Shown here in pieces: positions 11,152 to 39,196 of a DNA stretch of 64,000 bases. The translations under genes and the position numbers were made by a program. Origin of the DNA: an uncultured Lachnospiraceae bacterium. Lineage in GTDB: Bacteria > Bacillota > Clostridia > Lachnospirales > Lachnospiraceae. The stretch covers positions 1-64,000 of the forward strand of contig CADAIL010000018.1 in the NCBI GenBank assembly GCA_902788035.1, written 5' to 3'. The notes below the pieces were generated by a model. That model was given only the letters and a program-made list of their open reading frames with translations, ran no database searches and was not told the DNA's origin. Position 1 is the stretch's first letter. The number at the start of each line of letters is the position of its first letter.

Positions 11152-11349
11152 GTTCAGCTGAGCTGTGACTGAATTCCATGACCCGGCGCGCGCATCATCT
11201 TCATCGAAAAGCGCAGGTCCTACCCTGCGAGCTTGCGCAGGGGCGGCACGCCGCCCCTGCCCGATCTCTCCGGTCGGACCAGCAATGCTTTTCTCACGAA
11301 GACAGATGCCTCGCGCCGCTAACTTACATCAAGAACAGCTCATCTGAAC
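11152..11349. repeat. Large palindromic element, copy 1
   Basis: Outer arms GTTCAGCTGAGCTGT (11152-11166) and ACAGCTCATCTGAAC (11335-11349) pair with one mismatch; next inward GGCGCG/CGCGCC; then the conserved core from CATCTTC to GAAGACAGATG (about 11195-11307). The core contains GAAAAGC/GCTTTTC, a GGTCC/GGACC helix, the conserved words GAGAGATC and GCTCGCAGGG, and a GC-rich apical hairpin GGGGCGGC-ACG-CCGCCCC. It lies between the yerC promoter and the 3' end of the DUF4364 operon. No coding sequence is seen. Confidence 0.85.
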
Positions 11350-19246: not shown

Positions 19247-22200
19247 TTACTTAAATTTAGAAGGATTCCAGCCCGGAATCTTTGACGTCCAGCTCGTACC
19301 GAGGTATTTCTTCATATAAGAAGATACATGAGAACTGTAGCTCTTGGTGTCCATATACTTGAAGACATCAGCGGACTTCTTGGGTTTAGTGTATGTGTCC
19401 TTGCCGTCGGCATGGTAGAGACCCATATACCAGCCGCCGGACGTCTCGCCTGACTTATCCATCTCACGATGGTATCCGTACATATCAATATTGCTGTTAA
19501 ATTCGGCAAGATAGTATGAATACGCGACCGCGCATGCCTGCTGATCCTCCTGATTCGTCGAACCGTATTTGGACGACAGACCTGACTCCGGCAGTATGAC
19601 ATGCATGCCGCTTCCGTAAGTCTTCTTCAGGTACGATGCAAAATAGCTCATGTTGAGCGGCGTGATCTGCTTTGAGGTACCGCTGTTCGTTACAGCACTG
19701 CTCCTGACCCAGACCTTGCAGTCCTGCTCCGGTGACGGATACGGATGCATGGCCATATCCCAGTGAATGCCGCCCTGATTCTTCAGATCCTTGTCAAAGT
19801 CCTGGGTTAGGTAGAGACCCGGATATGTCTTATAGGTCTTTGTCCACTCGGATGTATTAGGGAAGCCCCAGTTGTGGTCCAGGGAGATATACGTACGTGC
19901 ATTTCTCCACCTGCTCTTGACCGAAGCGTTGAACATTCTGAACGCGTCGGCAAAGGCTTCATGATACTGGTCATAGGAAATATTTCCGCTGTAATTGTAA
20001 GTTATGTACTGATCGGTCTCATTTCCGAAAACCCAGTTCGCTACCATACAGCCGTCTTTCGTCCACTCGTCCGCAAGGCACGCAAAGAGCGCTTCCAGTT
20101 TCTTTCTGTTGCTGTTCTCGGTATTGAGTGCAAATATGACTCCGCTGCCTGATCGCGCGCCGCTCACAGCGGACGGCAGGATATAGTCCGTCATTGACCG
20201 GTTGCTCAGATAGAATACGCCTGTCACAACGATTCCGGCGCTGCTGTATTGTTTAATAAGATTCTTGTAGCCTGTGACGGATGTACTGAAATTGTATGTC
20301 TTGCCCTCGTAATTGTAGGAGTATGAGCTTCCTGAGAGGAAGACCTCCAGCGGGAAATCGAGGACGACATGACTGCAGTTCAGAGCCTTGGCCTGATTGA
20401 TATCGACAGTTCTCAAAGTCGTCTTCAGACCTTTTTTCGTCTTGCGTGCCGGCGTTGGAAATGCCGTCAGCTTGGTCGAAGCCATTTGCGGATTCGTTAT
20501 ATAGTATCCGTTGCTGGTAATACGATATTTTCCCTTACACTTTACAGCCACATAGAACTTCTTCTGCAGCAGGCTGGCGGAAGTATTCTTATTGAGCTTG
20601 GTCTTGAATGTCATGCTCGTCTGCAGGCTCACTGATGTGAGCGGTGACGCGCCGCTCAGTGTATCCTGATACGGAGCCACGGCAAAGAGATAGGCCTTTC
20701 CGTCATCGGATAACGGCTTTATGCCGCTCGACGTGACCGTGACTGTATTATTGTCAGAAGAACTGATGCTGCAGGATTTTATCAGCTGCCCCGCAAGATA
20801 CCACTTCTGGTGAGACTGGCTCTTGTTAGACGCCAGTATAATATTGGCTTTATTCTTATCCGTCGCCGATGAGATGGCCAGGCAGTACCCGCTTCCGAGC
20901 GCGGACCCGATCGTAGTCGTTCCGTCGCTGTTCCATGTGAGGAACCAGATCTGACCGGCAGCCCCTGTCCAGGGCATCTGTCTTATGTTAGCGCCGGAAG
21001 CTGCCTTGCCGCCATTCACATCGAGTACCTTTCCGTTATTGGTCTCGATCCTGTAATAGTAATTCGATTTGCTCTTATAGGTCACAGGGACGAACTTGAA
21101 TGAAGTCGCCGCATGTCCGGTATAGTCATACAGCTGAATATTCGTGTTATTTGCAGTGCTGTTGTCAAGAAGATGCACTGCCCGGTCTGTATTGTAGGCT
21201 GAGCGTATCCTGCATGTAAAAGATGACGTCTTCTGCGTTGTCTGAGCCGGGACAGATGTCTGGAACTTCTGAGTCGCCGAGCCTGAATATTTAGCTATGC
21301 GAAGTCTTGTCCCGGAACCGGTCCCCACGGCGTCGAGGACCATCTCGCTGTGAAGCCTTGAATAGAACGTGAATGTTCCGTCACTGTTCCTTACCGGCTT
21401 CCACAGCTGATACTGCCAGCCTTTTTTAGCGTACTGGTTGACATATGTACCGGCGGTCTTGGCCTGTCCGGCAGTCCCGAGCACCATCCCGCTGTTCTTA
21501 TTAATGAGAAGATAGTAGCCTCCCCAGACCCGCTGGTATGTAAAGACCTGCGGCGCGCTCCCGTTCGAAGTGCCGAGCTGCACCTTTGCCCCGCTCGTCT
21601 TCGAGCCTGATTCGACAGCCTCAGCCATGGAAGTCTTAGATGAAGGCCTGAGAGTAAGCGAACCGGAAAATTGTGCAAATGACGCCTCCGCCAGCGTAAA
21701 TCTCTGAGCCTTTGAATTTGACTTTGTCGTCACCTGAACATTTACGTTCTCCTTCGGGGTCCCGCTGCTAAGAGCGAGCGCAAGTTTTTTGTTGGCTGCA
21801 TTCAGGAACGAGTAGGTGCCGTCAGAGTTCGCGACCGCGACCCACTGCTGGTTGGTCGTGCCGACATATTCATACTGATGAACATTATGTCCGGATACCG
21901 GTGTATGGCTGGCCGCGCCGATGGCCTTTGAACTCTTGAAATTGTAGAATACGTAATTGCCGTTGCTAAGCTTCAGCAGGGTGAACCGCTGGTTGGCTCC
22001 CCAGGCGTTCTTGCGGATTTCCACATTTGCGTGATTCGCAGTGGAAGCGCCTTTGATGCAGACTACATAATTGGAATTTATGGCACTCCTTACGTAGACA
22101 GTTTTTCCGTTGGCGAGAAGGGATGCGGCTCCGATAAGCTCATCGTCGGTGACATCGGCCGCGGCGAGCCCTGACTCATCAGAGGGAAGCGCGGCGTCAT

Positions 22201-22591
22201 CGAGGGCGAGGCCTGATTCATCAAGAGCAAGACCGGACTCATCTGAGGGCACCTCCGCCGCGGATTCAGCCATCTCGTCATAGAGATCATAAGGCTGATC
22301 TATCATAAGTTCGTCATCCGGGACAGGTGAACCGTCCGATTCTGTCCCGGAATCCATATCCTCGCCGGGAAGGGCCGCTTCCGTCTCGGATGTTTCTTCT
22401 TCATCGGACTCGCTGATTGTGTCAGCAATATCCGCCGGTAGATCATACATATCAGAATCATCCGTGCTCTCCGTATCAGAATGAGACACCAGATTTTCGC
22501 CCATTGCATCCATGTCCTCGGCATACGCGGGGACCAGACAGGAAAGCATCATTGTCAGTGTTAAAATAATCGCTGTCAGCTTCTTTTTCAT
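19247..22591 (-). CDS. Large secreted protein: RICIN repeats followed by DUF5722 (glycosidase-like)
   Basis: This 1,114-residue protein has a signal peptide (about 1-24, ending AYAED), an acidic low-complexity region (25-150) with a repeated DESGLA word, then at least three RICIN beta-trefoil regions (about 160-600) with motifs NQRFTLL, NQQWVAV, YQLWKPV, GQIWFLT and HQKWYLA. The C-terminal part (about 690-1100) resembles DUF5722, a TIM-barrel family: [20 protein letters not shown] (candidate acid/base Glu) and [14 protein letters not shown] (candidate nucleophile Glu). I infer a glycoside hydrolase with carbohydrate-binding modules, acting outside the cell. The exact substrate cannot be told. 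Confidence 0.8.
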
Positions 22592-27449: not shown

Positions 27450-27631
27450 GGCTGCTGCCGGCTTCCAGGATCCGACAGCAAACATCATCTTCATCGAAAA
27501 ACGCAGGTCCTTCCCTGCGAGCTATGAGCAGGGGCGGCGTGCCGCCCTTGCTCGATCTCTCGGTCGGACCCGCAATGTTTTTCTCACGAAGATGGATGCT
27601 TTGCTGTCGGAAACGATGTGCAAGAGCAGCC
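27450..27631. repeat. Large palindromic element, copy 3
   Basis: Outer helix GGCTGC/GCAGCC, then a perfect 11-bp CCGACAGCAAA/TTTGCTGTCGG, then the core 27486-27594 in the opposite orientation to copy 2. The core has GTTTTTC/GAAAAAC, GCAGGTCC/GGACCCGC (one wobble), loop words CCCTGCGAGC and GATCTCTCGGTC, and apex AGCAGGGGCGGC-GT-GCCGCCCTTGCT. It lies upstream of purB. Confidence 0.9.
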
Positions 27632-27632
27632 A

Positions 27633-27718
27633 CCCGAAATCGAGTATTCAGTCTCCAACACAGGATTCTCGTGACAATTGCGGTAGTTCTCCATAAGATA
27701 CCTGGCCGCATGGTCATG
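27633..27718 (-). pseudogene. Degenerate copy of the 3' end of the adjacent TPR gene
   Basis: Minus-strand translation gives ARYLMENYRNC, which matches VRHLMEDYHNS at the C-terminus of the TPR protein (28000-28791). At base level about 20 of 23 positions agree (near 27675-27700 and 28012-28037). It has no start and is bracketed by palindromic elements, so it looks like a fragment left by repeat-mediated duplication. Confidence 0.6.
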
Positions 27719-27808
27719 GAGCTCGTTGCAGCCCGGACGGGGTGCTCGTATTTTTCGATGAAGATGGTGCTTGGCTGACGGCTCGTTGACCCAGGCTGAA
27801 GCCCGGGC

Positions 27809-27984
27809 GGGCTGCCCCTGTACTTCGATGCCGGCAGAAAAGCACTCATCTTCGTGAGAAAAACATTGTACATCCGACTGAGAAATCAGAAAATGCAAAG
27901 CATTTTCTTAGTTCGCAGGGAAGGATGTACGTTTTTCGATGAAGATGGTGCTTGGCTGCCGCGTCATAGACTCGGCGGCAGCCC
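27809..27984. repeat. Large palindromic element, copy 4, with an extra right arm upstream
   Basis: Nested helices are GGGCTGCC/GGCAGCCC, GGCAG/CTGCC, AAGCAC/GTGCTT, CATCTTC/GAAGATG, GAAAAAC/GTTTTTC and GTACATCC/GGATGTAC; the last replaces GCAGGTCC/GGACCTGC of other copies on both sides. Loop words are GACTGAGAAATCAG and AGTTCGCAGGGAA; the apex is AGAAAATGC-AAA-GCATTTTCT. A partial right arm (TTTTTCGATGAAGATGGTGC, about 27751-27770) lies just before it. Confidence 0.92.
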
Positions 27985-27999
27985 GGACAGGCTGTATAA

Positions 28000-28791
28000 T
28001 CATCCCCCGACCGAATTGTGGTAGTCCTCCATGAGATGGCGGACATAAGAATCGATGTCGTCCGGGATCACGGGGTTTGCGGCGCTGCGGGCAAAATTAA
28101 TCGTCGTCTCAGCCTCAGAGTAAACGGAGCGGGCTTCCTCCTCAGAGAGGCCTTTCAGCCGCAGCTCCATCAGAGCTTTCTCTTCGGGCTTCGTGATAGC
28201 GATCGCTCTCACATAGGCAAGCACATGCTTCTGGCTCTGCCGCAGCTTCCATGCTTCCTCAAAAGCGCGAAGCCCCTCCTCAAAAAGCAGCATGCGCATC
28301 AGAACGACCCCGAGATTGTGGTAGACCGCCGAGAGGAACTCCGGTCTGAATGCCGCTGTCTTTCCGTCCTCAATGACCTGACGGTAGGCGGCCTCCGCTG
28401 CCGAATACTTTCCGGTGCGGGTCAGCGCATCTCCCTTGTCTTTTAAGCGCAGCGGACCGGGAAGCTGAAGATAATCGGACAGACGTGCCGTGTAGGCGTC
28501 AAGCTGCGACGTGCTGAGATAGCCGCACTCACGGAACACCGGCGTGACAAATCCCGATATAGACTTCCTGCGCTCCAGCGCGATATTCATATTTTCAGCC
28601 AGTTTGGGCAGCATAAGCTCTGAAGCGATCCACTTTGTCAATTCTGTGCCTATGATCGTAGAATCGAGCAGCGGTATATTATTATAGAAATAATAACAGA
28701 GTTCCTCGATCGAATAGATGCTCGTGCTGATATTTTCAATGTAGTATGGTGTCTGCGCGTACTTTGTGCCGCACAGTCTGTAGCCTGCCAT
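28000..28791 (-). CDS. TPR-containing protein downstream of an actin/Hsp70-fold ATPase
   Basis: This 263-residue protein has an N-terminal helical region of no family I know (about 1-115) and tetratricopeptide-like repeats at about 117-205 (GDALTRTGKYSAAEAAYRQV and LGVVLMRMLLFEEGLRAFEEA are consecutive A/B helices). It ends HLMEDYHNSVGG. It lies 16 bases after the ATPase gene and closes the ispG-polC run. TPR scaffolds often partner with ATPases, which suggests a complex, but that is inference. A degenerate copy of its 3' end lies beyond a palindrome element. Confidence 0.7.
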   Translation of the reverse strand: MAGYRLCGTKYAQTPYYIENISTSIYSIEELCYYFYNNIPLLDSTIIGTELTKWIASELMLPKLAENMNIALERRKSISGFVTPVFRECGYLSTSQLDAYTARLSDYLQLPGPLRLKDKGDALTRTGKYSAAEAAYRQVIEDGKTAAFRPEFLSAVYHNLGVVLMRMLLFEEGLRAFEEAWKLRQSQKHVLAYVRAIAITKPEEKALMELRLKGLSEEEARSVYSEAETTINFARSAANPVIPDDIDSYVRHLMEDYHNSVGG

Positions 28792-28807
28792 ATCGCGTCA
28801 TCCCCCT

Positions 28808-30064
28808 TTATTCATCATCGAAAGCTTCCAGAGGTATCGTGTCCTCCCAGACCTTGTGCGTCGCCGGGAAGAATCCGCCAAAGCCAAGATCTTCTGCAGT
28901 GACATGACACACATCCGCTGAGGAACAGAAAAGTTTAAGACGGATCCTGGTCGCCCGGTTCGGCCTGTCAGGAAGATCGGGCAGATCCATCATGCACTTG
29001 CGCCTTTTCTTCTCATCAAGTGAGCTGAGAACAAAAACAAGTTCCCGCTTGTCGTCGAGAATGAACTCTATTTCATTGGCAGCGTCAAACCAGTTGCTGC
29101 CTGCGTTTATGAGCGGTATATACATGGCCTTTCCTTTTACCAGCATATCCATGCCTATACTCATTCTGACCAGATCTTCACTCATATAGATCTTGCCCTT
29201 CAGGGCATGGGTCTCCATATGCTCATAGGCTGCATAGCAGGCTCCCTTTACGAAGAGATTGTCCCCATAAAACACCTTGGCTGCCCGGCACATATACCGA
29301 ATCGATTTTTCCGGCCAGGACATATCAAATCCGGTACCGGTGATGAGTACGCCCGAGAACGAGCCGTTCGACATATTTTTATTCGCGTACTCGAGGAGCT
29401 GCAGATCGCGGATCTTCAAATCCTCCGACAATGTAGCCGGCGGCGCCGTTATGACTTTCACTGTCTGCGGTTTTCCGGTCGTATCCTCCTTAAGGGCCCT
29501 GAAGCTCACCCGATCCTCCTCAAATATGAAGAGAGCTACATCCCTCGCCCAGAATCCGGGTTTCTGACTGTAGGCATAGTAATAAAAGCTCTCCATCGAG
29601 TTCTGGAGCGAATACTGTTCATGGGAAAAACCGAGAGAGTCAAAAGCGCCTCTTATATTGGTTACCAGGTGAATCGGCAGACTATCCATCGTGACCATGA
29701 CGCAGGAAATACTGCCTGTCAGATCCCGAAGGCCGAGAAGCCTCAGCGACTCCCCGATAAATGCCGCAAGGAGTTCCGTCGGCGTATAGCTCTTATCCGG
29801 CAGATCCACCGGCTCCGTACCCAGTATCTCTTCTCCCCATACAAGATCAAAATCATCTCGAGTCCCGAAATACTCAGCCTCGAGCCCGAAATGCCACTCT
29901 TCTCTTCCCCGCTTTTTGGCAAGTACCGTCGGGAAACGGAAAAGGTTCGTGCCGACCTTAGTCGGCACAGAGACCGGCTCCTGCGCGTTCCTGTTGTAAT
30001 AGCTCAGCTGGGATTCCTCTTTTCCGAGTTCGAATCCCACGAGTACATTCCGAACTTCGTTCAA
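28808..30064 (-). CDS. Actin/Hsp70-fold (ASKHA) ATPase-like protein, DUF5716-like
   Basis: This 418-residue protein has features of the actin/Hsp70/sugar-kinase fold: a phosphate-1-like start VLVGFELGKEESQLSYY near residue 8, an ordered central part, and a phosphate-2/adenosine region SGVLITGTGFDMSW followed by FVKGACYAAYEH at about 235-280, like the KGAA motif of DnaK. The C-terminal 100 residues are mostly beta and lack the Hsp70 peptide-binding domain. I believe this corresponds to the DUF5716 family found next to DUF5717 in Lachnospiraceae, from memory. Its start overlaps the DUF5717-like gene by four bases. Function unknown. Confidence 0.65.
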   Translation of the reverse strand: MNEVRNVLVGFELGKEESQLSYYNRNAQEPVSVPTKVGTNLFRFPTVLAKKRGREEWHFGLEAEYFGTRDDFDLVWGEEILGTEPVDLPDKSYTPTELLAAFIGESLRLLGLRDLTGSISCVMVTMDSLPIHLVTNIRGAFDSLGFSHEQYSLQNSMESFYYYAYSQKPGFWARDVALFIFEEDRVSFRALKEDTTGKPQTVKVITAPPATLSEDLKIRDLQLLEYANKNMSNGSFSGVLITGTGFDMSWPEKSIRYMCRAAKVFYGDNLFVKGACYAAYEHMETHALKGKIYMSEDLVRMSIGMDMLVKGKAMYIPLINAGSNWFDAANEIEFILDDKRELVFVLSSLDEKKRRKCMMDLPDLPDRPNRATRIRLKLFCSSADVCHVTAEDLGFGGFFPATHKVWEDTIPLEAFDDE

Positions 30065-33000
30065 AACTCACCCTCCAATGTGAACAGCTGCCTGACGACC
30101 TGTTCTGCCTTCTCATATTCTGTAATGCTTTCCTCGAGCTTCTCCGTGTCTCCCTCGCTCTTCGCGATCAGGATACGATTGATCATCTGGTAGCGGCTTC
30201 GGCCGCTTGATTCTCTTACATCCGCAGTCACCGTATGCTCCTCGCTCGTCCACACAAGATCATCCCGTCGCACCGTCACATAATAGGTCAGCGACTCGCC
30301 GTAGAAGAGAATAAACTCTCTCGAGAAGATGCCCATATACATGTGCCCTAAGGGCATTGTTCTGTACTCTGTATCTTTGTCACTCGACAGGTGGTAGTGG
30401 AGCAGGACCTCATCCGACTCGCCCGCCGCCTGCTCAATGAAGACGCGGTCTTCCAGCTGGTATGGCTGGGTCAGTATCTCCGGCAGATCCTTGAAAAATG
30501 CGAATCTGAGCTTTGAAGCGTTACATTCTTCGAGTACAGTCTCTGCAAATGTCTCCTGCTGCAGCGTAAGGCTCTCCCTCTTTGAATATGTCAGAAGAAG
30601 AGCGATTCTCCACAGCTGCGCTGAAATATCGTTAATCTGGAACTGTTCCTCAATATAGGAAGCCGCAAAGTCGTCGAGCGGCGTGTTCGTCCGAAGACAC
30701 CTGATTGATATGAAAGAGATATAATCGCTCGCGGCTTTTCCTCCGCCCCCTGCCATCGCATAGCTTCGAAGGACCTCGTCAGCTTCCGGCACAGGTCGCC
30801 TTACGAACACGATCCGTTTAAGAATGATCTCGTCAAGCGCAGTCGTGTTAACATAAAATGTTCTGGCGTCCCGTCTGATCATCAGCATTGTGTCAAGGCT
30901 TCCCTGATAGTTATCCGCGAGATAAGTGAGCATGTTCTCGTCGAATTTGCCTCTCTCATATGTATGCAGGGTGAGAAGCAGCAAGTCCTCGTCCTCCTCA
31001 TCTCCATGATCCGCGATGAGATTCGTGACCAGTTTGACCAGCGATGAGAGTTCAAGCCCTTCGCAGCCGTATTTTTTCACGACCTTGAAGGCTTTCTCGT
31101 AAAATCCTCTGCCGATCAGGGCCTTCAGCAGCATGAGCCGGTCTACTCTGGCGAAATCATCGATATCGACGACTGTCAGATACTCATTGACAGACTCATC
31201 CTCCTCGTGCGTGCTCATGAATGTGAGAAGTTCCCTCTTGGCCTGGTCCCTGAATTCCTGTGTAAATGCAGGTGAATCCGCTATGCACTCCCACGCGGAG
31301 ATATTCTTCTCATCCGCATGCTCATACACGCCGTGCCCCGCGACGATATGGAGGAGAAGTCCCGGGAACTCGACACCGAGTTCCATAAGGCGTCCCGCCA
31401 TAGCCCCCGGCTCCATCATGACCGACTCTGAACTTGCCACACGCGACGCATGCCGCTTACCCATACCGTCTGTGAAGAAGATATGGGCGCTGTCCGTGTA
31501 GCGCTCAATATAGGCAGATCCGTTTCGGATCTGGTATGATTTTTCATTTGCCAGCTCCCCGTGGCATACAACAACTTCCCGCACATTCGGGTCGTCCGTG
31601 AAAATACGCCGGGTAAATATAGCTCTGGCAATTGCCTCCCCGCTCTTCTTGCTCCTGATATCCTTGATGAATTCCTGATAGATGGCCGCGTAATCCCCGT
31701 CCATCCTTCCGTTCTCAAGTGATTCAATAGCGAACTCGCGCATTTTCGGCGCATACATCTCATAGGTCTGCGGATCGAGGTCCTTATTCCTTATGACATT
31801 GGCATAGACAAAAGCGGTCTTCTGATCCGAGAGCTCACGGTTAAGCGCAAAATACACAAGAATCGGCTTCGGCAGGATCTTCTGGTAGGAATCCGGCAGA
31901 TTCTCGACATAGAACACGAAAAGCTTAGTGATGCGAAGTTCGCGGTTCACAGCCATCTCGAACCAGCTGAAATACTCATTTCTTGTCTGGGCTGTCCTCG
32001 GTGCCCCTTTCATAAGGAGCTTGCATATCGCGACAAGAATCTCGTCACTCGGATAAGCCTCGTAAGCGCCTGCGAGAATGTGATAGACTTCCTGAGAAAA
32101 TCCCTTTTCGTTGTCAGCAAGAAGAGCTGCGCGCTTAGCGAGCTCCTCAGTCATGATCCCGTTCCTTGTAGCGAACATGAGGACATGGCGCATAAAGGGC
32201 GTGAGTCTTCGAAGCTCCCTGCCGTCCCGTCTCAGGATCTTGACTGCTTCCAGATAGAGGATCGGACTGCGGGATCCCTGATTGTAGAGATCTCTCAGAT
32301 AATCCATCTTTCGCGTCGGGGTGCGGATGATATCCGGTTCGACACGGAAATAGATGAGTGTGAGTATCACGCTCTCCCGATAGCGCCCCTGCCACTCCCT
32401 GACCCGGGATAAAACATCGACATTGGGATCAAGAACACCTGTCAGGCGTCCCATATACATGAAGGCAGCCTTTACCTCCGCGCTCTCACGCCGGAAGTCA
32501 ACACCGGAAAGACTCCGGATGATATTGCCGGCCGCCTCCTTGTCGCCGGAGAGTTCCTCGATATAGGATTCATAGAGGGCGTAAATGACCGGATACTCAT
32601 CGAGCTCACGTATGGCGTTAAGAAGGCTCCTAGTCCGCTTAATGTATTCCTTCCGGTCGATTTTATCCATCTCGTAGTCCATATAGTGGCGGGTCAGCTT
32701 CGTACGGTTGCGCCGGTGGACCATATCCATGCTTACCGGAACATGAATATTTGCAGATGCATTCACTTGTATCTCCACTGTATTCTCGAATGAGCGCAGT
32801 GTGATCTTCCCGTAGCGCTTGCCGCGGCCAAGCTTTTCATACCGGATAATGTAGGCGAAATTATATATGGAACCGACAAAGTCCTCCCCGTAAATTTTCT
32901 TTTTCGGGAGTTCGATAAAGTCGGCGTCTGTCTCCACATCGATTTTCAGACTGCCCCAGGTGCTGCGGCGCAGCTTTATTATGTCCTGCTTTGTCTCGCG

Positions 33001-33612
33001 GAGGCGGGTAAACTCGCGCTCGGTCTTTTCCGCGGTAAAACTTACAGGCTGCTTGAGCCCGCAGCCGACCAGGAACTCCTCCAGCCTGTGATACGTGACC
33101 GGATTCCGGATCAGCCCCCGGTAGAGGGCCAGATGTTTTGCGTCCTCTCCCTCAAGGAGTCCTGCAAATGAAGGTCCGGTGAACAGCCTGAACGCTTCCT
33201 CGTAGTTCTCCCTGGCAAGGTCGGCAAATGCGGCAAGGTCGCGGATCTCGCCCGCCGAAGATTTTACGCGCTCGTCACGTATTTCCACATGGACAGGGAT
33301 CGTATACTCCCCGAGATTGGTCGAAAGAAGGATACTGCCGTCAACCGAGTCACCGTCCCTGAGTCCGGTGACATCGATGCCGTAGACCAGGTTCAGCGTC
33401 ATACCCGAGAATTTCTCCAGCTCCGGTACGATCCTTGCCTCCGAGACTGAAATCGAGCCCCGGACCTTTCTGCCGTTCGTCGTTTCAATTTTAATTTTTC
33501 CCCTGATATTCCCACCGACCGAGGTCTGCGCCTCGATTCTCTCCTCTGAAATGATGAGCGACGGTGAGGATTCTTCGAACCATTCGCCGGGATCTTGCAG
33601 TGTCCACTTCAT
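30061..33612 (-). CDS. Very large DUF5717-like protein: beta-sandwich N-terminus and helical solenoid
   Basis: This 1,183-residue protein has no signal peptide or membrane helix. The N-terminus (about 1-115) and a second segment (about 210-280) look like Ig-type beta sandwiches with GKIKIETTNGRKVRG and GKITLRSFENTVEIQVNASA. The middle (about 300-1040) is a helical solenoid with TPR-like spacing (YIKRTRSLLNAIRELDEYPV, EVYHILAGAYEAYPSDEI). The C-terminal 100 residues are beta rich. I match it to DUF5717 from memory of its genomic pairing with DUF5716. It is coupled to the ATPase (four-base overlap) and starts 11 bases after polC. A scaffold for the ATPase is a reasonable inference. Confidence 0.68.
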   Translation of the reverse strand: MKWTLQDPGEWFEESSPSLIISEERIEAQTSVGGNIRGKIKIETTNGRKVRGSISVSEARIVPELEKFSGMTLNLVYGIDVTGLRDGDSVDGSILLSTNLGEYTIPVHVEIRDERVKSSAGEIRDLAAFADLARENYEEAFRLFTGPSFAGLLEGEDAKHLALYRGLIRNPVTYHRLEEFLVGCGLKQPVSFTAEKTEREFTRLRETKQDIIKLRRSTWGSLKIDVETDADFIELPKKKIYGEDFVGSIYNFAYIIRYEKLGRGKRYGKITLRSFENTVEIQVNASANIHVPVSMDMVHRRNRTKLTRHYMDYEMDKIDRKEYIKRTRSLLNAIRELDEYPVIYALYESYIEELSGDKEAAGNIIRSLSGVDFRRESAEVKAAFMYMGRLTGVLDPNVDVLSRVREWQGRYRESVILTLIYFRVEPDIIRTPTRKMDYLRDLYNQGSRSPILYLEAVKILRRDGRELRRLTPFMRHVLMFATRNGIMTEELAKRAALLADNEKGFSQEVYHILAGAYEAYPSDEILVAICKLLMKGAPRTAQTRNEYFSWFEMAVNRELRITKLFVFYVENLPDSYQKILPKPILVYFALNRELSDQKTAFVYANVIRNKDLDPQTYEMYAPKMREFAIESLENGRMDGDYAAIYQEFIKDIRSKKSGEAIARAIFTRRIFTDDPNVREVVVCHGELANEKSYQIRNGSAYIERYTDSAHIFFTDGMGKRHASRVASSESVMMEPGAMAGRLMELGVEFPGLLLHIVAGHGVYEHADEKNISAWECIADSPAFTQEFRDQAKRELLTFMSTHEEDESVNEYLTVVDIDDFARVDRLMLLKALIGRGFYEKAFKVVKKYGCEGLELSSLVKLVTNLIADHGDEEDEDLLLLTLHTYERGKFDENMLTYLADNYQGSLDTMLMIRRDARTFYVNTTALDEIILKRIVFVRRPVPEADEVLRSYAMAGGGGKAASDYISFISIRCLRTNTPLDDFAASYIEEQFQINDISAQLWRIALLLTYSKRESLTLQQETFAETVLEECNASKLRFAFFKDLPEILTQPYQLEDRVFIEQAAGESDEVLLHYHLSSDKDTEYRTMPLGHMYMGIFSREFILFYGESLTYYVTVRRDDLVWTSEEHTVTADVRESSGRSRYQMINRILIAKSEGDTEKLEESITEYEKAEQVVRQLFTLEGEF

Positions 33613-33623
33613 GGTGTGCTCCT

Positions 33624-36600
33624 TTAAACAAGGTCAAACAGTGAAATCTGGTTCGTCTCCGGGATATCCCCGAGGACACCCAGTGTGTCAAACAGGTTGA
33701 TAAGTGTCTGTGATGCTTTTGTGCGCTGACGGAAATCGTCCTTGGAGAGGAACGGTCCGTTCTTTGCGGCCTCCTCGATCTGGACCGCGACGGCGTCGCC
33801 GAGGCCGGCTATCGAATTGATGGACGGCATCAGCTTTCCGTCTATGATAGAAAATTCTTTGGCTTTTGCCCTGAAAAGATCCAGCTTGTGGAATTCAATG
33901 CCTCTCGCGTACATTTCCCTCACGATGAGGGCATCCTTGAGAAGTTCTTCATCCTTAGGCGTCTTCTCCGGCTTGCTCTCGATTTCTTTCATGTTGGCCT
34001 CGAAAATTTCTCTGCCCCGCCCCATGAGGACATAGTCAAATGTGGTGACACGGATAGAGAACATGGCCGCGTAGTAAGCCAGCGGATAATTGATTTTATA
34101 GTATGCTATGCGGAAGGCATTCATGACGTACGCCGCCGCATGCGCTTTCGGGAACATATACTTGATGCGCTTGCAGGATTCAATGTACCATTCCGGCACG
34201 CCGTGCTCACGCATCTCAGACTCCTGGTCAGGCCGAAGCCCCCTGCCCTTTCGGACAGACTCCATGATCTTGAAGGAATGCTCCGGCTCCACGCCCCACG
34301 CAATGAGATTCAGCATGATATCATCGCGGGTGCAGATAGCCGTGCCCAGCGTACAGTCGCCGTTTTTGATGAAATACTGAGCGTTATCCAGCCATACATT
34401 TGTACCATGGGACAGACCGGAAATACGGATGAGCTCAGACAGAGTCTTCGGCTTCGTATCCCTGAGCATGCCCATGACAAAGCTGGTACCGAATTCCGGA
34501 ACACCCAGCGTTCCGAGGTCGATATCACCGAGGTCTCCCTTCTTAAGTCCCAGAGCTTCTATGCCTGAGAAGAGGCTGAGCACGCCCTTGTCGTCGAGCG
34601 GGACCCTCAGCGGATCTGTCCCCGTGAGGTCCTGCAGCATACGGATGATCGTCGGATCATCGTGACCGAGAATGTCGAGCTTCAGAAGATTCGAGTCGAT
34701 CGAGTGATAATCAAAGTGGGTGGTGATGATGTCGCTCGTCATATCATTGGCAGGATGCTGGACCGGAGTGAACCAGTTGATGTTCATGCCTTTGGGCAGA
34801 ACAATGACGCCGCCCGGATGCTGGCCGGTCGTTCTGCGGACGCCGGTGCATCCCTGAGAGAGACGCTCGAGTTCGCACGGTCTCTTGGAGATTCCCTTAT
34901 CCTCGAAATAGTGCATAGCCAGACCGTAGGCAGTCTTGTCAGCGACCGTGCCGATCGTACCTGCCTTGAAGGTCTGACCGGTGCCGAAAATAACTTCCGT
35001 GTAGGCCTGGGCAACGCCCTGCTCGTCTCCGGAGAAGTTGAGGTCGATATCCGGCTCCTTATCTCCCTTGAATCCGAGGAAGGTCTCGAACGGGATGTCG
35101 AAGCCGAGCTTGCTCAGTTTATGTCCGCAGACCGGGCATACCTTATCCGGCATGTCCGCTCCGCACCTGCCGCCGTATGACTTGACTTCATCGGAGTCAA
35201 AATCCACATAGTGGCACTCCGGGCAGAGATAGTGCGGAGGCAGCGGATTTACTTCCGTAATATTGGCCATTGTCGCGACAAGCGAAGATCCGACAGATCC
35301 TCGAGATCCGACCAGATAGCCGTCGTCGTTGGACTTTTTGACCAGCCTCTGCGCGATAATGTACATAACGGCATAGCCGTTCTTTATGATCGATGTAAGC
35401 TCCTTTTTTAGGCGGGAGCTGACCTGTTCGGGGATGTTCTCCCCATATATGCTTCTTGCGGTCGCGTAGCACATCTCCTCGAGCTCCTTGTCGGAGTTCT
35501 CGATGACGGGAGGACACTTGTCCGGATGGATCGGAGAAATCTGCTCGATCCAGCCTGCGATTTTATTGGTATTCTCGACAACGACCTCATAGGCTTTCTT
35601 TTCGCCGAGATAGGCGAACTCGCTCAGCATCTCCTCCGTCGTGTGGAGATAAAGCGGAGGCTGCCCTTCGTCCTTATAGCCATGGCCGGACTGGATGATC
35701 GTTCGATAGATTGCGTCCTCCGGGTTAAGGAAGTGCACATCGCAGGTGGCAGCGACCGGTTTGCCGAAATCCTCGCCGAGCTTGACGATCTTCTTATTAA
35801 TCTCGCGGAGCTCGTCGAAGTTCGTGACTCCCCGGATCTGGTCCCGAACGATGTATTCGTTGTTGCCGACCGGCTGGACCTCCAGATAGTCGTAGAACTG
35901 AACGATCTTCGCAATCTGGGAAGCAGGCTTCTCCTCAAAGATGGCCTTGTACAGCTCTCCCGCCGAGCAGGCCGAACCGAGGATCAGGCCTTCACGATAC
36001 TTTATGAGCAGCGAGCGCGGTATACGTGGCCGCTTCTTAAAATAGCGCAGATGGGACTCGGAGATCAGGGTATAGAGGTTTCGTCTTCCCTGCTCATTCT
36101 TTGCCAGAATGATAATGTGGTAGTAAGGCAGGTTGCGGATCCGCTCATCGGAGACCATTCCCCTGCTGTTCAGTTCGGCGTAGGTCGAAACGCCCTGTTT
36201 CTTCATGGCGTCCATGAGCTGCAGGTAAATTTTCGCGAGTGCTTCGGCCCTGTCCCCCGCCCGGTGCGGATTTGCACAGGTGACCTTAAAGGCTTTGGTC
36301 AGTTTTTCAAATGTTCCCCTGCTCACGTGCGGCATCAAAAAGCGGATGCAGGAAGGTATGTCGACAATCGTCCGCTCCCTGCCGTCCGTCTGCCAGCTAA
36401 CGCCGCTCATCTCACACGCGTGCTCGATGAAAGCGGCTCCCATTTCCGCGTCGTAGGATACGAGCGGAGCGCCATCTGCAAATGCAAGAAAGTCCGAGAC
36501 CGCCTCCCCCAGCGCTTTTCCCCTGGCTACATGGCTGTCGCCGATGCCGGTCTCCCGCGTGAACTTGAAAGGAAGAGGCTTGCCGGGATTGATGATTGCG

Positions 36601-38027
36601 GAGAAGCTCTCCGTGATATTTCCCTTGCAGATCTTGTGAGCTGCAATTTCTATGAGGTCATGAGAGAGGATCGACGGACCTGTCGTCACGACCGAGAACA
36701 CGCATACCGGATCCTGCGTGCTTATATCATCCGGTCCGGTGACAAGAGTCGTCATGTCATCGACAAGGTAGCCCTCGCAGCCATAGATGACCTTGAAATC
36801 CGGATCTTTTTCATTTGACGCGTGATGGGCTTCCGGGAAAGCCTGAACAACGCCGTGGTCTGTGATGGCAAGCGCTTTCATTCCCCACTTTTTAGCCTGA
36901 CCGATGATATCCTTCGCGGATGAGACCGCGTCCATATCGGACATTTTGGTATGGCAGTGGAGCTCGACGCGCTTGACCGGGGCCGTATCCATGCGCTCTT
37001 CCTTGAAAGAACCGATCTTCTTGATGGAATAGACGGTCTTGATCATGACCTCCTTCTCGAACTGGTCGAAATCCATCATTCCCTTGACAAGGAAGCAGTT
37101 GCCCTTCTTGAACGCGGATGCGTACTGCTCCATCTCCTCCGGGAGGAGCCAGAGCTTCATGCGGATGCTGTCCGTATAATCCGTCATCGCGATATTCAGA
37201 ATAATCTTTCCGTTTCTGGTCTCCCGGCTCTCACTGCCGAAGACGCAGCCGCGGATGACCACTTCATGCGGGTCTTCCCCGAGGTCGGCGATCGGCGTCG
37301 GTTCCTCGCTGATTCCCTTTCCGAGAATGACATCCGGGTCGCTCGAGATAAATGTCTTCTGCTGACGGTATTTCTTTTCCGAGGCATTCGGAAGTTTCTG
37401 CTGTTTTTCCTGATTCTCCTCGTGCTTTTCTCTCCGGCTCGCGTTCTTTCTAAGGACATCGTTGACCTTATTCCTGATGCGCTCGTCATCCGCCTCAAAG
37501 AGACTTTTTGTGTTGGCCGGGGTGAGGTCGCCCTCAACGTGGATGTCTGCAAATCCGGCCCGCTCCGCAAATATCTTATCCAGATACTCTACGAGCTGGT
37601 TCTTGCGCTCCCTGGATATAATTGTCTCCGGAATACCGGCGTATATCGTGTTCCCGTCAAATTCAAGATTTGTGTGCAGGAACATCTGATGGAGGAGAGG
37701 ACTGACTTCCTTGAGTTCAAGGAGCATGCTGGATCTGTAGTATTTGTAAAAATTCTTCGGTGTGTACTGCGAGGACAGCACAAAGCGCTCGACGATTTTG
37801 ACCTCCATCGTGACATTTTCGAATATCTGTCCGGCGATCGCGTCCTCGACTTCATATATATACTGCTTCTTTATCCAGTTCTCTGATGTTATATAGACAT
37901 GTAGGCGATTCCTTGCCTGGTTGATGGCCAGTCTCGTTACAGTGACCCCCTCCATGAGATCACGTATCTCCCTCGGGAGATTGAGGCCGGGAAAAGCCTT
38001 AAGGAATGTCATCCTCTTATCGGGCAT
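33624..38027 (-). CDS. polC: DNA polymerase III PolC-type, with degenerate proofreading exonuclease domain
   Basis: This 1,467-residue replicative polymerase has the PolC order: N-terminal domain, OB fold (about 250-340), PHP domain (VELHCHTKMSDMDA and ALAITDHGVVQAFPEA, about 350-430), exonuclease domain (about 437-610) inside PHP, then the four-cysteine zinc module (LCPEC, KVCPVC) and the polymerase core with PDIDLNFSG. The exonuclease aligns well with other PolC proteins, but four of the five DEDDh residues are gone: S445 and V447 for the Asp and Glu of exo I (VFSVVTTG), G530 for the exo II Asp, R593 for the exo III Asp; H588 remains. Polymerase activity looks intact, proofreading lost. It starts 3 bases after ispG. 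Confidence 0.95.
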   Translation of the reverse strand: MPDKRMTFLKAFPGLNLPREIRDLMEGVTVTRLAINQARNRLHVYITSENWIKKQYIYEVEDAIAGQIFENVTMEVKIVERFVLSSQYTPKNFYKYYRSSMLLELKEVSPLLHQMFLHTNLEFDGNTIYAGIPETIISRERKNQLVEYLDKIFAERAGFADIHVEGDLTPANTKSLFEADDERIRNKVNDVLRKNASRREKHEENQEKQQKLPNASEKKYRQQKTFISSDPDVILGKGISEEPTPIADLGEDPHEVVIRGCVFGSESRETRNGKIILNIAMTDYTDSIRMKLWLLPEEMEQYASAFKKGNCFLVKGMMDFDQFEKEVMIKTVYSIKKIGSFKEERMDTAPVKRVELHCHTKMSDMDAVSSAKDIIGQAKKWGMKALAITDHGVVQAFPEAHHASNEKDPDFKVIYGCEGYLVDDMTTLVTGPDDISTQDPVCVFSVVTTGPSILSHDLIEIAAHKICKGNITESFSAIINPGKPLPFKFTRETGIGDSHVARGKALGEAVSDFLAFADGAPLVSYDAEMGAAFIEHACEMSGVSWQTDGRERTIVDIPSCIRFLMPHVSRGTFEKLTKAFKVTCANPHRAGDRAEALAKIYLQLMDAMKKQGVSTYAELNSRGMVSDERIRNLPYYHIIILAKNEQGRRNLYTLISESHLRYFKKRPRIPRSLLIKYREGLILGSACSAGELYKAIFEEKPASQIAKIVQFYDYLEVQPVGNNEYIVRDQIRGVTNFDELREINKKIVKLGEDFGKPVAATCDVHFLNPEDAIYRTIIQSGHGYKDEGQPPLYLHTTEEMLSEFAYLGEKKAYEVVVENTNKIAGWIEQISPIHPDKCPPVIENSDKELEEMCYATARSIYGENIPEQVSSRLKKELTSIIKNGYAVMYIIAQRLVKKSNDDGYLVGSRGSVGSSLVATMANITEVNPLPPHYLCPECHYVDFDSDEVKSYGGRCGADMPDKVCPVCGHKLSKLGFDIPFETFLGFKGDKEPDIDLNFSGDEQGVAQAYTEVIFGTGQTFKAGTIGTVADKTAYGLAMHYFEDKGISKRPCELERLSQGCTGVRRTTGQHPGGVIVLPKGMNINWFTPVQHPANDMTSDIITTHFDYHSIDSNLLKLDILGHDDPTIIRMLQDLTGTDPLRVPLDDKGVLSLFSGIEALGLKKGDLGDIDLGTLGVPEFGTSFVMGMLRDTKPKTLSELIRISGLSHGTNVWLDNAQYFIKNGDCTLGTAICTRDDIMLNLIAWGVEPEHSFKIMESVRKGRGLRPDQESEMREHGVPEWYIESCKRIKYMFPKAHAAAYVMNAFRIAYYKINYPLAYYAAMFSIRVTTFDYVLMGRGREIFEANMKEIESKPEKTPKDEELLKDALIVREMYARGIEFHKLDLFRAKAKEFSIIDGKLMPSINSIAGLGDAVAVQIEEAAKNGPFLSKDDFRQRTKASQTLINLFDTLGVLGDIPETNQISLFDLV

Positions 38028-38030
38028 GTA

Positions 38031-39083
38031 TTATCTCCAGTTCAATAATTCATCTTCAAGGGCTCCGAGAAGTTCACTCTCAGGCACTTTTCTGATTATT
38101 TTTCCGTGTTTTATGATCAGACCTTCGCCTTTTCCGCCGCAGACACCGATATCAGCTTCGGCCGCCTCACCGGGGCCGTTGACGACGCATCCCATGACGG
38201 CAACCTTGATCTCAAGAGGGATGTTCTCGACGAGGCGTTCGACATTATTTGCAAGACTAATTAAATCGATCTGCGTTCTTCCGCAGGTCGGACAGGATAC
38301 GACTTCGATGTGCCCTCTCCGAAGACCGAGCGTCTGAAGGATCCTCTTCCCTACTCGGACCTCCTCCACGGGATCTCCTGTGAGAGAGACCCGGATCGTG
38401 TCGCCGATGCCCTGGCCAAGAATCATGCCAAGACCGACAGAGGACTTGATCGTTCCGGAAAAGACAGTGCCCGCCTCGGTGATGCCAACGTGGAGCGGGT
38501 AGGTGGTCTGCTCGGCGATGAGCTCGTGAGCCCGGACACACATGAGAACATCAGAAGACTTGATGCTGATGACCATGTTATCATAGCCGAGGTCCTCAAT
38601 GATCTTCACTTTGTCGAGCGCGCTCTCAACAAGACCTTCCGCGGTCACACGTCCGTACTTTTTGACGATCTCCTTCTCCAGGGAGCCTGAATTGACGCCG
38701 ACTCTTATCGGAATGCCCCGTTCTTTGGCGACATCGACGACCGCCTTGATGCGTTCGATGCTGCCTATATTGCCCGGGTTGATCCGGATCGCGTCCGCGC
38801 CGTACTCCATGGCCGCGATTGCGAGGCGGTAATCAAAATGGATGTCCGCCACGATCGGGATGTTGATCTGTTTCTTTATCTTGGCGAATGCCTCCGCCGC
38901 TTCCATGGTCGGGACGGTGCTGCGGATGATCTCGCAGCCGGCATCTTCGAGCTTTCTGATCTGGGCGATAGTCGCCTCAAAATCCTCTGTCTTCGTGTTG
39001 GTCATAGACTGGACAGTGATCGGGTTTCCTCCTCCGATGATTCTGTCTCCGATTCGAACTTCTTTTGTATGATCTCTGTACAT
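38031..39083 (-). CDS. ispG: 4-hydroxy-3-methylbut-2-enyl diphosphate synthase (flavodoxin)
   Basis: This 350-residue iron-sulfur enzyme makes HMBPP in the MEP isoprenoid pathway. The start VRIGDRIIGGGNPITVQSMTNT region, the cluster cysteines in VVSCPTCGRTQ and VMGCVVNGPGEA, and the Glu of the latter are all present. ATG at 39083 has AAAGG eight bases upstream; the frame runs three codons further to a GTG. It is the first gene of a run into polC, unlike the more common dxr-rseP-ispG order. Confidence 0.96.
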   Translation of the reverse strand: MYRDHTKEVRIGDRIIGGGNPITVQSMTNTKTEDFEATIAQIRKLEDAGCEIIRSTVPTMEAAEAFAKIKKQINIPIVADIHFDYRLAIAAMEYGADAIRINPGNIGSIERIKAVVDVAKERGIPIRVGVNSGSLEKEIVKKYGRVTAEGLVESALDKVKIIEDLGYDNMVISIKSSDVLMCVRAHELIAEQTTYPLHVGITEAGTVFSGTIKSSVGLGMILGQGIGDTIRVSLTGDPVEEVRVGKRILQTLGLRRGHIEVVSCPTCGRTQIDLISLANNVERLVENIPLEIKVAVMGCVVNGPGEAAEADIGVCGGKGEGLIIKHGKIIRKVPESELLGALEDELLNWR

Positions 39084-39196
39084 GGTACGCACCTTTCATA
39101 TTGAGGACATTTCTTGGATCATATGGATATTCGCTCAGCGAGAAATATGTACCTGCCACTGATGCCGGCTGACCATAAGACCCTATAGGTTTTTAA

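Follow-up and report, generated by a model that had tools for sequence, protein, structure and literature searches.

A lidless degenerate Hsp70, a scaffold and a TPR protein as a candidate chaperone-like complex of Lachnospiraceae

Ssz1 of the eukaryotic RAC is an Hsp70 with a truncated SBD-beta and no lid; it does not hydrolyse ATP, and its binding to a partner protein is stable (PMC10191838). In bacteria, operons of the GAP1-N2 GTPase systems combine HSP70 and GrpE genes with one for a repeat protein that is fused to DnaJ or TPR (PMC7159879, eLife 2020); some have another protein with an Hsp70 domain, and this second Hsp70 has no peptide-binding domain (PMC7159879). These operons are the nearest published gene neighbourhoods to the cassette analysed here, which occupies positions 28000-33612 of the window, the whole 64,000-nt stretch of DNA under analysis (positions 1 to 64,000 of contig CADAIL010000018.1, assembly GCA_902788035.1, from an uncultured Lachnospiraceae bacterium). 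Lachnospiraceae are among the most abundant mammalian gut bacteria. The cassette encodes DUF5717, DUF5716 and TPR proteins (Table 1). DUF5716 is, like Ssz1, a lidless Hsp70, a likeness of analogy and not of membership, as Ssz1 binds ATP and partners a J-domain protein, whereas DUF5716 lacks subdomain IIB, the HPD motif of J domains is absent from all three window proteins, and the presumed partners of DUF5716 are a solenoid scaffold and the TPR protein. From the GAP1-N2 systems the locus and its relatives differ in that the second-type Hsp70 keeps its SBD-beta, that no GTPase, GAP1 or FNIII component is present, that there are four Hsp70 classes, one of them fused to vWA, along with an ASH-like/solenoid scaffold, and that the occurrence is limited to one order. 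No description of this system was found in the papers searched on DUF5716/DUF5717, signature proteins and Hsp70 operons, and the Pfam entries for both families give no function and no link to Hsp70. The proteins are thus already catalogued as DUFs, while the papers searched appear to contain neither their reading as a degenerate Hsp70 that has a scaffold and an adaptor nor the parent operon described below.

Table 1. Cassette genes and mapped features in the window (all on the minus strand)
Feature	Size or residues	Window position (strand)	Description	Basis
DUF5717 protein	1183 aa	30061..33612 (-)	two N-terminal ASH/PapD-like beta-sandwiches, helical linker, long alpha-solenoid with beta insertions	
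First ASH/PapD-like beta-sandwich	DUF5717 19-111	33280..33558 (-)		model secondary structure and structural match
Second beta-sandwich	DUF5717 192-286	32755..33039 (-)		model secondary structure and structural match
Alpha-solenoid	DUF5717 295-1051	30460..32730 (-)	beta insertion at about 667-731	model; weak Ctr9/TPR-type match
DUF5716 protein	418 aa	28808..30064 (-)	TTG start; lidless degenerate Hsp70 (NBD without IIB plus SBD-beta-type domain)	Pfam, AF2, Foldseek, VIA-align, hhalign, tree, catalytic-residue map
Phosphate-1-like motif	G10-F-E-L-G-K-E-E-S18	30011..30037 (-)	aligned with DnaK GIDLGTTNS	conservation
Lost phosphate-2 loop site	DUF5716 178-186	29507..29533 (-)	position of DnaK DLGGGT	conservation and alignment
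Subdomain IIB deletion site	DUF5716 about 207-215	29420..29446 (-)		motif spacing, alignment, model secondary structure
Connect-2 motif	G267-D-N-L-F-V-K-G-A-C276	29237..29266 (-)		conservation
SBD-beta-type domain	DUF5716 291-411	28832..29194 (-)	motifs LPxRPxxxTR and DLGFG; no helical lid after it	motifs LPxRPxxxTR and DLGFG
TPR protein	263 aa	28000..28791 (-)	third cassette member; N-terminal conserved region, TPR repeats at about 117-186	

The three genes follow ispG (38031-39092) and polC (33624-38027), with 11 nt between polC and the DUF5717 gene, a 4-nt overlap between the DUF5717 stop and the DUF5716 start, and 16 nt between the DUF5716 and TPR genes, as the earlier note on this DNA had described when it placed three overlapping or near-touching genes after polC. 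Pfam assigned the giant protein to DUF5717 (PF18984, E=1e-223, and PF18983, E=2e-76; 745 bits for DUF5717_N and 258 bits for DUF5717 against a curated cut-off of 25 each) and the middle protein to DUF5716_C (PF18980, E=3e-88, 296 bits against a cut-off of 34.7), a model that spans only residues 122-411. As a single sequence the third protein gave weak TPR matches below the Pfam cut-offs. Its family profile matched designed TPR chains at E=7e-41, which makes firm the note's naming of a TPR protein. Hydropathy analysis revealed no TM-like segment in any of the three window proteins.

The single-chain AlphaFold2 model of DUF5717 (pLDDT 87) consists of two beta-sandwiches, then a solenoid of roughly 750 residues into which beta elements are inserted, and a beta domain at the C-terminus, in agreement with the sandwich-plus-solenoid architecture that had been read from the 1,183-residue translation. 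The first sandwich superposed on the HYDIN PapD-like domain 2ys4 with Z 10.9 and an rmsd of 2.3 A over 95 residues, and the sandwiches matched central-apparatus and CEP192 chains with Z 11-13.5 (Foldseek/VIA-align). By fold alone, the N-terminal domains are therefore PapD-like. Their likeness to HYDIN/CEP192-type ASH domains extends to the fold of both domains (Z 10.9-13.5), but DUF5717 is bacterial, no sequence similarity to these proteins was detected and Ig-like folds are widespread. Structural matches of the solenoid were weak and were to TPR superhelices such as Ctr9, and its fold may be one that the list of matches does not include.

DUF5716 is an Hsp70-type ASKHA protein by fold, sequence profiles and descent. 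The single-chain AlphaFold2 model, built from an alignment of 75 family sequences, reached pLDDT 95.8 and pTM 0.91, and the top 50 Foldseek matches to it were essentially all Hsp70s (best E=2.5e-19), including DnaK, BiP, Hsc70, mortalin, Hsp110, Ssb, Ssz1 and the Hsp70 of a ciliary complex. VIA-align superposed 371 of the 418 residues on DnaK 7kru at Z=20.0, residues 6-412 falling on DnaK chain residues 2-503, which comprise the NBD and SBD-beta. Docked-state DnaK entries superposed on the model at about 7-9 A and undocked entries at 18-21 A, so by its domain arrangement the model resembles the docked state. The DUF5716 profile, searched against the PDB, retrieved DnaK chains only (E=1e-4), collinear at the start of the NBD and the end of SBD-beta, and hhalign against 27 DnaKs gave a global alignment over residues 5-418 with E=3.7e-9. 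An ASKHA-fold NBD followed by SBD-beta, with common descent indicated by sequence, places the protein in the Hsp70 superfamily. The predicted ASKHA fold bears out the actin/Hsp70 fold proposed by the earlier note and narrows it to Hsp70. The further statement that this protein has no peptide-binding domain was wrong, since its C-terminal ~120 residues (about 291-411) resemble DnaK SBD-beta in sequence and fold; only the alpha-helical lid (SBD-alpha) is missing, the chain running only a few residues past the SBD-beta-type domain. This domain might be a docking site for proteins instead of a peptide binder.

In comparison with DnaK/HSP70 (PF00012), DUF5716 shares the NBD and SBD-beta fold, a collinear sequence and an ancestry traceable via class B/C proteins of sister families, but it lacks the lid, IIB and the catalytic Lys, Glu, phosphate-2 and Thr elements. 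The phosphate-1-like and KGA-type motifs pointed out earlier are real and conserved in the 75 sequences. Residue 12, which lies in the former, is D in 49/75 and E in 25/75, and in the connect-2 motif G267, N269, L270, G274, A275 and C276 are invariant and K273 nearly so. The adenosine-site Gly (G243) is likewise invariant in the family, and conservation extends to A321/G322/W325 and to the SBD-beta motifs LPxRPxxxTR and DxGFG. Alignment with DnaK gave no conserved counterpart for Lys70, Glu171, Asp194, the GGG loop or Thr199. The interval from phosphate-2 to the adenosine-site Gly is 63-78 residues, as opposed to 146 in DnaK and 139-183 across all other Hsp70 classes, and the model and the alignment locate this gap at subdomain IIB, which in Hsp70s contributes to the adenine pocket and the GrpE site. 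With Lys70, Glu171, DLGGGT with Thr199, IIB and the lid, the canonical features of a DnaK-type ATPase are absent. Because DUF5716 has lost IIB and its catalytic Lys, Glu, phosphate-2 loop and Thr, ATP hydrolysis appears unlikely from its sequence, and the label of ATPase given by the earlier note does not suit it. With G243 and the connect-2 motif invariant, nucleotide may be bound without hydrolysis.

The distribution of the cassette was evaluated at several taxonomic depths. Searches with PF18980 and PF18983 over a class sample of 291 genomes placed DUF5716 and DUF5717 in the same ten genomes, all of the family of the window. A strict restriction to one family was nevertheless dropped, as a deeper DUF5717 profile found divergent, often split homologues elsewhere in the order: this profile matched 4/249 genomes of a phylum sample, all Lachnospiraceae, and 94/196 genomes of an order sample. 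Within the family, each of the two DUFs was present in 388 of 397 species and both in 386, the four species with just one being incomplete assemblies (67-85%); when only good genomes were counted, each DUF occurred in 316/320. Some family genomes that are 92-99% complete carry neither (G318 and G387, also G380 and G660), through real losses or assembly gaps. The TPR profile matched 59/60 family genomes, 58 of them strongly. Relatives of the cassette that carry names come almost throughout from Lachnospiraceae. The cassette is a near-universal, almost family-specific core feature of Lachnospiraceae. Its proteins evolve fast for a core unit, with a median pairwise identity of 27-32% against 73% for DnaK across Clostridia families, samples that differ in breadth.

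Gene order was conserved. The order DUF5717-DUF5716-TPR was kept, wherever the contig allows, in 40/40 loci from the searches and in 80 named loci. Sixty further loci, drawn independently and spread over the family, contained the complete cassette in 57 cases, 34 of them as DUF5717-DUF5716-TPR-CC and 23 as DUF5717-DUF5716-TPR, with three incomplete in the ORF call. CC is a fourth gene of many genera, coding for a coiled coil of ~400 aa with two hydrophobic (TM) segments and no Pfam family; it adjoins the cassette in about 60% of family loci and is absent beside about 40%. Median gaps along the four genes are 15, 9 and 2 nt, and DUF5716 and TPR are fused in at least four loci (two of the 23 three-gene loci, plus L061 and L062). 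The constant order, the near-perfect co-occurrence and these fusions make it likely that DUF5717, DUF5716 and the TPR protein share one complex. Of the new complex proposed in the earlier note the shared complex thus stands as likely and the genes are not often found apart; only the interpretation is new. The note's suggestion of growth coupling through ispG-polC expression is not general, as polC lies near 3/60 and ispG near 1/60 family loci. Commoner neighbours are purB (25/60) and a CobD-like aminotransferase (22/60, upstream and on the opposite strand), and these have no functional logic.

Outside Lachnospiraceae DUF5717 is usually split into a beta-sandwich protein of ~400 aa and a solenoid protein of ~900 aa. 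Forty sister-family loci of DUF5717-like genes were examined, and in many of them these two genes open a larger operon, followed in order by Hsp70-A (~557 aa), a GrpE-domain coiled coil, Hsp70-B (~520 aa), Hsp70-C (~546 aa), Hsp70-D-vWA (~700 aa) and TPR; the membrane coiled coil closes the operon where the contig reaches that far. The complete operon was seen in L217. A C-terminal GrpE domain was found in 8/9 of the operon coiled-coil proteins tested and the vWA fusion of Hsp70-D in 3/3. Among individual loci, the Hsp70 with C-terminal vWA lies at L217:12517-14676 and likewise in L226 and L236, and a long coiled coil with C-terminal GrpE domain lies between two Hsp70 genes at L217:7375-9312 and similarly elsewhere. 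Two unrelated-looking genes (192 and 223 aa) separate Hsp70-A from the GrpE-domain gene at L226:8642-9891. Fused or shortened sandwich-solenoid proteins of 931-1329 aa occur in L221, L223, L232, L236, L237, L250, L251 and L255; these changes recur in different families and have a counterpart in the fused DUF5717 of Lachnospiraceae. In family f186 the sandwich-solenoid pair and the Hsp70 genes are not neighbours but are still found together.

The four Hsp70 classes of this operon relate DUF5716 to conventional Hsp70s. Classes A, C and D, together with DnaK, retain Lys70, Glu171 and DLGGGT, whereas class B and DUF5716 do not; class B still has IIB, which is therefore missing from DUF5716 alone. 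Hsp70-B and Hsp70-C of L217 each passed two Pfam cut-offs, that of HSP70 and that of DUF5716_C, which ties the two families together without recourse to any structure. In a tree of 78 sequences, DUF5716 formed one clade (100/99) adjoining the class B of one family (100/100), with long branches flagged, and all class B sequences and DUF5716 were on one side of a 100/100 branch that had C, A, D and DnaK on the other. As far as these sequences tell, DUF5716 is a descendant of the degenerate class B of the four-Hsp70 operon. Class-B Hsp70 was present in 14/15 chosen order genomes with DUF5717-like genes, the exception being an 80% complete assembly, and in 0/12 chosen order genomes without them, where all 12 gave DnaK-level matches only (Fisher p=7e-7 over the 27 chosen genomes, phylogeny not corrected). 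The structural and evolutionary reading of DUF5716, as a degenerate Hsp70 derived from a larger operon, is highly probable.

We consider it rather probable that the cassette encodes a cytosolic chaperone-like scaffold complex, core to Lachnospiraceae, in which a dead Hsp70 holds a peptide or a partner without ATP. The mechanism that we infer, comprising a physical complex, the absence of ATP hydrolysis, peptide holding and membrane anchoring, stands at about an even chance. The ancestor of the order probably possessed a machine of several Hsp70s and a GrpE-type factor of its own, of which Lachnospiraceae retain only the dead Hsp70, the scaffold fused into one polypeptide, the TPR protein and often the membrane coiled coil. 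DUF5717 would provide the scaffold by its ASH/Ig-like tandem and helical solenoid, and the TPR protein would serve as the obligate adaptor of DUF5716, the catalytically dead lidless Hsp70 whose SBD-beta-type domain would hold a peptide or partner segment independently of ATP. Where a two-TM coiled coil is encoded, as in about 60% of family loci, it probably serves as the membrane anchor of the complex; its gene was searched for in the window's own genome and was not found there, and the anchor is therefore not universal. The exchange-factor protein, the active Hsp70s and IIB were lost in one lineage, as would be expected of a component without an ATP cycle, and these coincident losses together with the Ssz1 analogy favour a constitutive client-holding scaffold that would work like yeast Ssz1. 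Whether the system amounts to an undescribed chaperone machine specific to the order is evenly poised: an ancestral operon of four specialised Hsp70s (one dead, one fused to vWA), which also encoded an ASH-like/solenoid scaffold, a GrpE-domain exchange factor, the membrane coiled coil and TPR, would have been streamlined in Lachnospiraceae to an ATP-independent dead-Hsp70 complex that nearly every species keeps. Once the pseudo-Hsp70 and the Hsp70-GrpE-vWA operon of the relatives are recognised, three DUF families so far anonymous can be tested as a chaperone-like complex. Here is also a bacterial parallel to Ssz1, with an Hsp70 kept past the loss of its ATPase cycle, and with losses, in the same lineage, of the exchange factor, the active paralogues and the exchange-factor-binding subdomain.

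The same domains have been weighed under other functions. An ASH-like scaffold and a coiled coil could organise a structure of the cell body at the membrane or envelope, with the Hsp70 part as its assembly chaperone, as would suit the two TM segments of the fourth gene product and the ASH/PapD-like domains, for which HYDIN/CEP192-type scaffolds are among the best structural matches. This is unlikely, however: about 40% of sampled loci have no adjoining coiled coil and the genome of the window has none at all, the resemblance of Ig-like folds says little on function, and no conserved envelope, division or motility neighbour was found at the family loci. A translation-linked machine resembling RAC, in which the pseudo-Hsp70 and the TPR/solenoid scaffold, located at the ribosome, would place nascent chains within reach of housekeeping DnaK, gains from the domain content of Ssz1, the non-hydrolysing lidless Hsp70 of RAC (PMC10191838), which is the same and which is among the structural matches of DUF5716. 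A separate DnaK is available to it, given that PF00012 matches in the window's own genome comprise, besides DUF5716 (itself below PF00012 detection), only DnaK and one match in the MreB range, and the near-universal single-copy distribution suits a core role. Yet the cassette has no J domain, no conserved ribosomal or translation gene adjoins it at the family loci, the membrane coiled coil of about 60% of loci suggests another role, and a function at the ribosome would not be expected to stay within one order, all of which makes this explanation improbable.

Kinship with the GAP1-N2 GTPase systems and their HSP70, GrpE and TPR/DnaJ components, with a role in conflict or defence, is very unlikely. 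The Hsp70, GrpE, vWA and TPR proteins of the sister-family operon are common to published conflict-system themes (PMC7159879), but no GTPase, GAP1, effector or nuclease domain was found among the nine L217 proteins of the operon, PADLOC gave no match for the three-gene cassette, and presence in the family is near-universal and single-copy rather than patchy. It is scarcely credible that DUF5716 is an active Hsp70-type ATPase or an actin-like filament former. The confirmed ASKHA fold, the mostly D or E phosphate-1 acid and the invariant adenosine-site Gly are what such a protein would have; against this, catalytic Lys, Glu, phosphate-2 loop and Thr are lost with the whole of IIB, the protein sits on the Hsp70 tree beside a class already degenerate in sister families, and its SBD-beta-type domain is found in Hsp70 and not in polymerising actins. 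The filament-like machine considered in the earlier note fares no better, since DUF5716 groups with Hsp70 and not with those actins.

Two other features of the window were observed. Positions 19247-22591 encode a 1114-aa protein; judged by eye from the translation, its N-terminus resembles a signal peptide and ricin-B-like lectin-type stretches recur in it. The ~700-nt gap past the TPR gene consists of direct and inverted repeat units (window 27479-27971) with arms of 49-78 nt that are 79-86% complementary. Their core, TTTTTCGATGAAGATG, has 7 copies in the window at up to 2 mismatches, as opposed to 0.09 expected, and the element recurs at window positions 11196, 15304, 39336 and 43350; the units after the TPR gene probably belong to a dispersed repeat element.
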